Assembly: GCA_900197615.1 (NCBI GenBank)
Contig: FZLR01000030.1
Span: forward strand, 1 to 32,406
Direction: 5' to 3'
Origin: Rhodospirillaceae bacterium Spongia-Bin9
GTDB taxonomy: Bacteria; Pseudomonadota; Alphaproteobacteria; Bin65
DNA: 32,406 nt
The notes below the pieces were generated by a model. That model did no database searches and was not told where the DNA came from. It worked only from the letters and a program-made list of their open reading frames with translations. Numbering within the stretch: the stretch's first letter is position 1; each line of letters begins with the position of its first letter. Below are positions 30,105 to 32,406 of the stretch, in pieces. Position numbers and translations under genes: made by a program.

Positions 30105-32406
30105 ATGACCAACATCGCCGCCATATCCCACCAGATCTGGGACATGAAGTACCGGCTCAAGGGGCCGGACGGCGCACCGGTCGACCGGACGATCGACGAC
30201 ACCTGGCGGCGGGTCGCGAAGGCGCTGGCGGCGGTCGAGCGCGAGCCGGCGGCGTGGGAGGACCGCTTCCGCGACGCGATGCGCGATTTCCGCTTCATGC
30301 CGGCCGGGCGGATCCTCGCCGGCGCCGGCGCGGATCGCAACGTCACCCTGTTCAACTGCTTCGTCATGGGCGAAATCCCGGACGATATGAGCGGCATCTT
30401 CCGCCAGCTCCAGGAAGCCGCGCTCACCATGCAGCAGGGCGGCGGCATCGGCTACGATTTCTCGACGCTTCGTCCGCGCGGCGCGCCGGTTCGCGGCGTC
30501 GGCGCCGACGCCTCCGGCCCGCTCTCGTTCATGGATGTCTGGGATTCGATGTGCCGGACCATCATGAGCGCCGGCCACCGCCGCGGCGCCATGATGGCGA
30601 CCGTGCGCTGCGACCATCCGGATATCGAAGCCTTCATCGAGGCCAAGCGCGAGCCCGGCCGGCTGCGCATGTTCAACCTCTCGGTGCTGGTCACCGACGC
30701 CTTCATGGCGGCCGTCCGGCAGGACGATCCGTGGGATCTCGTCTTCGGCGGCGCGGTCTACCGCACGGTGCAGGCCCGGGCGCTGTGGGACACGATCGTG
30801 CGCTCGACCTACGCTTTCGCCGAGCCGGGCGTCATCTTCATCGACCGGATCAACCGGCTTAACCCGTTGAATTACTGCGAAAAAATAGCTAGTAGTAATC
30901 CCTGCGGCGAGCAGCCGCTGCCGCCCTATGGCGCCTGCCTGCTCGGCTCGATCAACCTGGCGCGGCTGGTCGAGCGGCCGTTCGAAGCCGATGCGGCGCT
31001 CGACCTCGACGAATTGCAGCGGCTGACCGCCGTCGCCGTGCGCATGATGGACAACGTCACCGACCTCTCGAACTTCCCGCTGCCGGAACAGCGGGCGGAG
31101 GCGCTGGCCAAACGGCGCATCGGGCTCGGCGTGACCGGGCTGGCCGACGCGCTCATCATGTGCCGGTCGCGCTACGGCAGCGCCGACGCCGTGCGGCTGG
31201 CCGAACGATGGCTGGCGACGATTCAGAAGGCGGCGTACCTGGCCTCGGCCGATCTCGCCGCCGAGAAGGGCGCCTTCCCGCTGTTCGACGCCGACAAGTA
31301 TCTGGCGACGCCCGCCATGGCCGAGGCGGATGCGGAAGTGCGCGCAGCGATCCGCGCGAAAGGGCTGCGCAACGCCCTGCTGACCTCGATCGCGCCGACC
31401 GGCACGATCTCGCTGCTCGCCGATAACGTGTCGTCCGGCGTCGAGCCGGTTTTCACCTGGTCCTACACCCGCAACGTCCTGATGCCGGACGGGACGCGGC
31501 GCGAGGAAGAGGTTGCCGACTATGCCTGGCGGCTCTACCGCCGGCTCAAGGGTGCCGACGCCCCGCTGCCGGACTGGTTCGTCGACGCCCGGGGCCTGAG
31601 CCCGCGCGACCATGTCGTCATGCAGGCGGCGGTCCAGAAATATGTCGATAGCTCGATCTCCAAGACCATCAACTGCCCGGAGGATATCGGCTTCGACGCC
31701 TTCAAGGACGTTTATGCGATGGCGTTCGACATGGGCTGCAAGGGCTGCACGACCTACCGGCCGAACGACGTCACCGGCGCGGTCCTGACCGCCGGGAAAG
31801 ACAAGGCGAAGGCCGACAGCGGGCAGCAGGAACTGCCGCTCGTCCCGCCCGAGAAGACGGAGACGGCCAAGCCGGCGGACGATCTGGATGCCGGCGGCGT
31901 GGTCTACATGACCCGGCCGCTCGACCGGCCGGAGGCATTGCCCGGCCGGACCTACAAGATCCGCTGGCCGGAGAGCGACCACGCCATCTACATCACCCTC
32001 AACGACATTATCCAGGACGGCCGGCGCCGGCCCTTCGAGATCTTCATCAACTCGAAGAACATGGAGCATTACGCCTGGACGGTCGGCCTGACCCGGATGA
32101 TCAGCGCCGTATTCCGGCGCGGCGGCGATGTCTCCTTCGTGGTCGAGGAATTGAAAGCGGTGTTCGACCCGCGCGGCGGCCAGTGGGTCGGCCCCCGCTA
32201 TGTGCCCAGCCTGCTCGCCGCGATCGGCGACGTCATCGAACAGCACATGATCGATATCGGCTTCCTGCCCAGCCCGCAGGAGGCGCGGGAGGGCCGGCGC
32301 GAACTCAAGGTCGTCGGCGGCACGGATGCGGCGGCGCCTGGCAGCGGTTCCGGCAGCGATTCCGGCGGGGGGGCTCCGCGCGCCCGCAGTCAGGTCGTCG
32401 CCGGAG
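30105..32406 (+). CDS. nrdJ: Adenosylcobalamin-dependent (class II) ribonucleoside-diphosphate reductase NrdJ, 3' end cut by window
   Basis: NrdJ makes deoxyribonucleotides with a radical formed from coenzyme B12, with no need for oxygen or NrdB. The frame is open from ATG 30105 to the window end (767 codons visible). The active site is clear by analogy with Thermotoga NrdJ: thiyl cysteine C267 and E269 in NPCGEQ, and the reducible pair C85 (LFNCFVMG) and C278 (PPYGACLLGSINL). Further motifs are LTSIAPTGTISLLADNVSSGVEP, split here as TSIAPTGTIS and SSGVEP, and GCKGCTTYRPN (C545, C548). A TSCPD domain covers about residues 620-712, followed by a Gly/Ser-rich linker; the C-terminal shuttle cysteines are probably beyond the edge. 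GGGGA lies ten bases before the ATG. Codons 255-265, just before the active site, are strikingly AT-rich. Confidence 0.95.
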   Translation, partial: MTNIAAISHQIWDMKYRLKGPDGAPVDRTIDDTWRRVAKALAAVEREPAAWEDRFRDAMRDFRFMPAGRILAGAGADRNVTLFNCFVMGEIPDDMSGIFRQLQEAALTMQQGGGIGYDFSTLRPRGAPVRGVGADASGPLSFMDVWDSMCRTIMSAGHRRGAMMATVRCDHPDIEAFIEAKREPGRLRMFNLSVLVTDAFMAAVRQDDPWDLVFGGAVYRTVQARALWDTIVRSTYAFAEPGVIFIDRINRLNPLNYCEKIASSNPCGEQPLPPYGACLLGSINLARLVERPFEADAALDLDELQRLTAVAVRMMDNVTDLSNFPLPEQRAEALAKRRIGLGVTGLADALIMCRSRYGSADAVRLAERWLATIQKAAYLASADLAAEKGAFPLFDADKYLATPAMAEADAEVRAAIRAKGLRNALLTSIAPTGTISLLADNVSSGVEPVFTWSYTRNVLMPDGTRREEEVADYAWRLYRRLKGADAPLPDWFVDARGLSPRDHVVMQAAVQKYVDSSISKTINCPEDIGFDAFKDVYAMAFDMGCKGCTTYRPNDVTGAVLTAGKDKAKADSGQQELPLVPPEKTETAKPADDLDAGGVVYMTRPLDRPEALPGRTYKIRWPESDHAIYITLNDIIQDGRRRPFEIFINSKNMEHYAWTVGLTRMISAVFRRGGDVSFVVEELKAVFDPRGGQWVGPRYVPSLLAAIGDVIEQHMIDIGFLPSPQEAREGRRELKVVGGTDAAAPGSGSGSDSGGGAPRARSQVVAG

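Follow-up and report, generated by a model that had tools for sequence, protein, structure and literature searches.

An AT-rich divergent patch beside an active-site intein insertion point in alphaproteobacterial nrdJ

Background

Inteins occur in ribonucleotide reductases at the active-site motif. The nrdJ gene described here belongs to the same gene family, and in its relatives the insertion is likewise at the catalytic cysteine, but the allele under study is empty.

Three described systems are close to this locus. In the case of the cox1 group I intron of angiosperms, intron loss with full retention of the co-conversion tract was inferred in C. songaricum (PMC3192709). As in that gene, a short and highly divergent coding tract touches the insertion site of an element-free nrdJ. 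The cox1 tract, however, marks carriers and was brought by homing, whereas the nrdJ patch marks empty alleles and the flanks of carriers are ordinary. The homing-cycle model includes altered-target X' alleles with reduced susceptibility to homing, and intein removal in it is a rare precise deletion (PMC3229294). Empty alleles with a changed target are thus predicted; X' alleles arise there by mutation, while the nrdJ changes form a block of up to ~80 bp that includes amino-acid changes. In haloarchaeal mcm, residue differences beside the intein site also separate empty from occupied alleles, and the resistance was explained by a proline at +1, which prevents splicing (PMC10643990). In nrdJ, by contrast, the +1 residue is still Cys and the changes lie 5' of the insertion point or on both sides of it.

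A literature search with access to few subscription journals found no paper on NrdJ, inteins and Alphaproteobacteria together, and none on patches in empty alleles but not in carriers.

Results and discussion

An AT-rich island in nrdJ

The window is the whole 32,406-nt stretch that was analyzed and comprises all of contig FZLR01000030.1 from Rhodospirillaceae bacterium Spongia-Bin9. Its NrdJ scored 582 bits with TIGR02504 against a curated NCBIfam cut-off of 399.95, which places it among the class II enzymes. Three features are needed first:

30105..32405, + strand: nrdJ, adenosylcobalamin-dependent (class II) ribonucleotide reductase, intein-free; 3' end cut by the contig end
30867..30899, + strand: AT-rich island of 11 codons, 27 % G+C, the feature of the initial annotation
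30880..30885, + strand: run of six A; comparison with genomes G005 and G006 shows no conserved slippery site

The island (TTG AAT TAC TGC GAA AAA ATA GCT AGT AGT AAT) covers codons 255-265. Its coordinates, its codons, its 9 G or C in 33 bases, the run of six A and the TAG TAG TAA in the -1 frame (30890-30898) were all verified. Only 3 of the 11 codons end in G or C, and the GC3 of the whole gene is 0.898. When codon usage was scanned along the gene, the island was the 11-codon window with the lowest GC3 (rank 1-2 of 757). With a model fitted per gene and per amino acid to 112 alphaproteobacterial nrdJ genes, its z was -5.8 after amino-acid correction, a value as extreme as that of 0.024 % of all windows in these genes. 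The encoded residues (N, Y, E, K and I) account for part of the low G+C, and the same codons in GC-rich intein-bearing congeners have a G+C of only 0.48-0.61.

The peptide is unusual as well. It reads LNYCEKIASSNPC in the window and, for example, LSYAETIHATNPC in intein carriers, with CEKIASSN in place of approximately AETIHATN. Of the bacterial sites sampled, those of the window, G005 and G006 alone have a lysine before the isoleucine. The initial annotation was therefore wrong in holding that only the nucleotides are strange.

G005 is another metagenome-assembled genome of the Rhodospirillaceae, with a NrdJ 95 % identical to that of the window. It shares both the peptide and the patch; within codons 255-265, two third bases differ. 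When the peptide YCEKIASSNPCGEQP was searched across 85k genomes, the G005 record (MPMX01000048.1) was the only hit. At up to three mismatches, no second copy of the island was found in its own genome and no copy in G006 or G001.

The insertion point is occupied by an intein in congeners

In relatives, a LAGLIDADG intein was found exactly at the site:

30902..30903, + strand: intein insertion point, empty in the window, between Pro (CCC 30900-30902) and the active-site Cys (TGC 30903-30905); relatives read NP-CVTADTW...VHN-CGEQP

The point is occupied in four of the six congeners (G001-G004) and in G007 of the same family, by inserts of 375-380 aa exactly between NP and CGEQ, and also in other families (374-382 aa overall). 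In carriers the in-frame insert splits the NrdJ match at residues 265-268; it reads CVTADTWV...VHN and is followed by CGEQP. A Cys start and an HN end directly before CGEQ were present in the 14 carriers with ends examined, and the G001 protein has the Pfam domains Intein_splicing (PF14890) and LAGLIDADG_3 (PF14528). Judged from these splicing and LAGLIDADG domains, the N-terminal Cys, the C-terminal His-Asn and the +1 Cys, the congener insert is a LAGLIDADG intein with a predicted endonuclease. The window allele has no insert, as its reading frame is contiguous through NPCGEQ, and three bases separate the end of the island from the insertion point.

Intein and extein identities were moderately correlated (r = 0.43, Mantel p = 0.024, one per genus). 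The closest intein outside the genus (g1) is that of G007 in its own family, and the exteins agree, which suits an intein older than the genus and favours old presence followed by loss. However, intein presence is scattered over the extein tree, with 14 changes and no clustering, so that a gain after the split from the window species and G005 may also account for it. In both AddA and extein trees, the window species and G005 lie outside the carriers G001-G004, and G006 is the most distant member of the genus.

In addition, 33 stretches of viral contigs (L373-L405) have HN before CGEQP at the same point. As 26 of them have inserts of 137-372 aa, the site is occupied in viral nrdJ-like genes too.

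Divergence in the window is confined to the site

Comparison with the intein-bearing congeners defined two further features:

30858..30899, + strand: divergent patch, codons 252-265, with 19-22 differences per 14 codons from intein-bearing congeners (codon-difference scan)
30882..30902, + strand: 5' half of the presumed homing-endonuclease target, deduced from the insertion point

In codons 255-269 the window shared 60-66 % of its nucleotides with the intein-bearing congeners, compared with 91-100 % in the two neighbouring bins of 15 codons. The 14-codon window with the most differences was at 0-based codons 250-264 (permutation p ≤ 0.0002 against G001, G002 and G004). Of the 21 bases immediately upstream of the insertion point, 10 are changed in the window relative to the carrier G001, compared with 2-3 in G002-G004; downstream, the first 12 bases of the window are unchanged from G001. 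Codons changed at all three bases and amino-acid changes occur inside alleles that are otherwise 93-95 % identical, and import of a tract would fit these better than point mutation. The clustered blocks of differences between conserved motifs look like short homeologous recombination.

Between the carriers G001 and G003 (L031 and L033; NrdJ 97 % identical), the densest differences are at codons 246-259, immediately upstream of the insertion point (permutation p 0.05). In G008 and G010 (L043 and L044), GC3 is reduced in the middle of nrdJ (approximately codons 280-560) relative to the ends, and this stretch may be a longer recombination block.

Patches recur at the site in empty alleles

A scan of 130 nrdJ genes was performed with the site excluded from the fit. 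Strong patches were taken as z < -4.5, and the z thresholds in these recurrence tests were not set in advance. With this threshold the insertion-site tile had seven genes, whereas the other tiles had 0.76 on average and at most 4 (p = 4e-5; p = 0.0018 without the window and G005). The insertion site is thus a hotspot of AT-rich patches among the 130 genes. All seven strongly patched alleles (the window, G005, G096, G272, G753, G236 and G102) are intein-free. They comprise 5 of the 21 empty alleles with a congeneric carrier and 2 of the 90 without one (7/111 empty alleles overall), and none of the 19 carriers. With the same threshold, not pre-set, the contrast between the two classes of empty alleles gave p = 0.0025 (p = 0.036 without the window and G005). 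At the looser z < -3.5 it gave only p = 0.049, and the comparison with carriers was not significant.

Sixteen of the 21 empty alleles in carrier genera have no strong patch. In genus g178, six empty alleles were followed up and no strong patch was found in them; thus patching is not the rule. When divergence between nearest neighbours was pooled over all pairs, the site did not emerge as a general hotspot, and the signal came from specific lineages.

Genus g43 was sampled further because G272 is patched there and G049 is intein-bearing. A new genome, G753, has the strongest patch (z -12.9), which spans both sides of the insertion point (codons 248-274). Between G753 and the intein-bearing allele of G752, 95 of 2064 bases differ in the first 700 codons, 25 of them within the 81 nt of codons 248-274. 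The patch of G272 lies in the same place as that of G753 and has a different sequence.

The g43 case was considered as proof of direction by nested loss and was dropped, as the G752 genome is not sister to G753 by AddA. The nrdJ on G752 contig C2 (L444) has ~95 % DNA identity to that of G753, and the AddA is only 70 % identical. AddA groups the G752 genome with G049, away from G753 and G272, so the nrdJ contig of G752 was exchanged or mis-binned. This weakens the nested-loss argument, and the g43 case alone is no proof of loss. The addA match of G753 (L465) contains a TGA stop.

Possible loss by replacement, or evasion, of the intein

A divergent tract adjoins the insertion site in the window, as in a classical co-conversion tract, and its best match outside sister alleles is 31 of 39 nt, in the viral contig L219 (IMGVR_UViG_3300048642_000079). 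A co-conversion tract would accompany the element in carriers, whereas at z < -4.5 the patches are restricted to empty alleles. The nrdJ pattern therefore differs from the classical tract, which is not supported in its strict form because the carriers lack the patch. The initial annotation had proposed the scar of a lost element or short recombination from an AT-rich donor, and this is supported in essence, with an intein exactly here and the divergence confined to the site; the strict co-conversion part of it is not. Since carriers have ordinary flanks and the patch is in empty alleles, the patch would come with loss or evasion and not with gain.

That the patches and the intein site are connected, in either direction, we regard as probable. 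For the island itself we prefer a short recombination patch at a now empty LAGLIDADG intein site, with loss by replacement favoured over a scar of evasion or repair, and we hold this full reading with even confidence. A tract of some 42 bp or more, from a divergent and AT-richer nrdJ allele that lacked the intein, would have taken the place of the bases immediately upstream of the insertion point. The resulting nrdJ would be in frame and intein-free, and the 5' half of the presumed endonuclease target would be rewritten, which may block cutting. Where the block spans the insertion point in an intein-bearing allele, the intein would be removed in frame. Most likely, the patch removed the intein from the ancestor of the window species and G005. 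In the window, however, there is no change 3' of the point, so the tract there is not seen to cross it as removal requires.

The strongest competitor is that the site was never occupied: the intein endonuclease would have cut it and the break would have been repaired from a divergent nrdJ, or altered alleles would have been selected, giving a resistant target. The heavily altered 5' half-site of the window, which contrasts with the few differences among the g1 carriers, would be expected from this, and alleles with an altered target and lower susceptibility have been modelled (PMC3229294). The two different patches of G753 and G272 also speak for it. On the other hand, there is far more change than resistance should need, including codons outside a 20-22-bp target of the putative endonuclease. 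We consider evasion possible but rather unlikely, and take the patch to accompany loss rather than to protect an empty site.

Donors and recombination independent of the intein

The source of the patches was searched in bacterial and viral pools. No exact 20-mer match to the island was found in viral contigs. The best codon-aligned matches outside sister alleles reached at most 0.72-0.80 for patches of at least 36 nt. In L219, the site (TTG AAT TAC TGC GAG AAA ATC GCC GCT ACG AAT CCT) is the closest to the window patch outside G005; this nrdJ has a GC3 of 0.93, AT-ending codons at the site and 57 % amino-acid identity to that of the window. The remaining top matches are viral too, but the pool is biased, as the peptide YCEKI was used to choose part of it. 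A viral or other AT-richer donor is, on these sequence matches, a lead and not a result.

The same material bears on the view that the site is a recombination hotspot unrelated to the intein, in which the conserved FIDRIN and PYGACLLGS blocks admit short nrdJ fragments, for instance from alphaproteobacterial phages. Phages of Rhodobacter, Dinoroseobacter, Rhizobium and Roseobacter have nrdJ homologues. Viral contigs often have YCEKI sites (113), and among 398 Pseudomonadota genomes YCEKIA..NPC was found in the window only. However, the concentration of strong patches in genera with carriers argues against it, and elsewhere in nrdJ strong patches do not occur at comparable rates. We judge this explanation improbable.

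Nucleotide signals and assembly error

A regulated frameshift or termination switch and a structural site in the mRNA had also been proposed. The window has the run of six A and the three -1-frame stops, and a 36-nt segment folds at -6.8 kcal/mol (z -3.6). In G005 the run of six A persists with a single stop left, and G006 lacks both the run and the stops; the hairpin is weaker in G005 and absent in G006, and most relatives have ordinary codons at the position. A programmed -1 frameshift site was rejected as the slippery run and the following stop are not conserved in close relatives, and the hairpin failed for the same reason. A functional nucleotide signal is thus largely refuted, and we find it very improbable. 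The hairpin in the window patch (30871-30899) has 8 bp, ATTACTGC...AGTAGTAAT (z -3.6). The patch of G753 also folds (z -2.5), with another sequence.

An assembly artefact might be suspected in a fragmented draft genome of 316 contigs, but it is hardly credible, since the other assembly, G005, has the same patch with two third-base differences.

Conclusions

More tentatively, and with some doubt, we suggest that intein removal and immunisation of the site may occur in one step, repeatedly, through homeologous patches of ~40-80 bp from divergent, perhaps phage-borne, nrdJ genes. If true, this would be a route of intein loss besides rare precise deletion, and one that leaves a recognisable scar. 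A patch that recurs at the empty site would provide the loss step with a physical trace, by which genome data could distinguish losses from sites that were never occupied. It would also tie the exchange of nrdJ alleles to the escape of the host from a selfish element.
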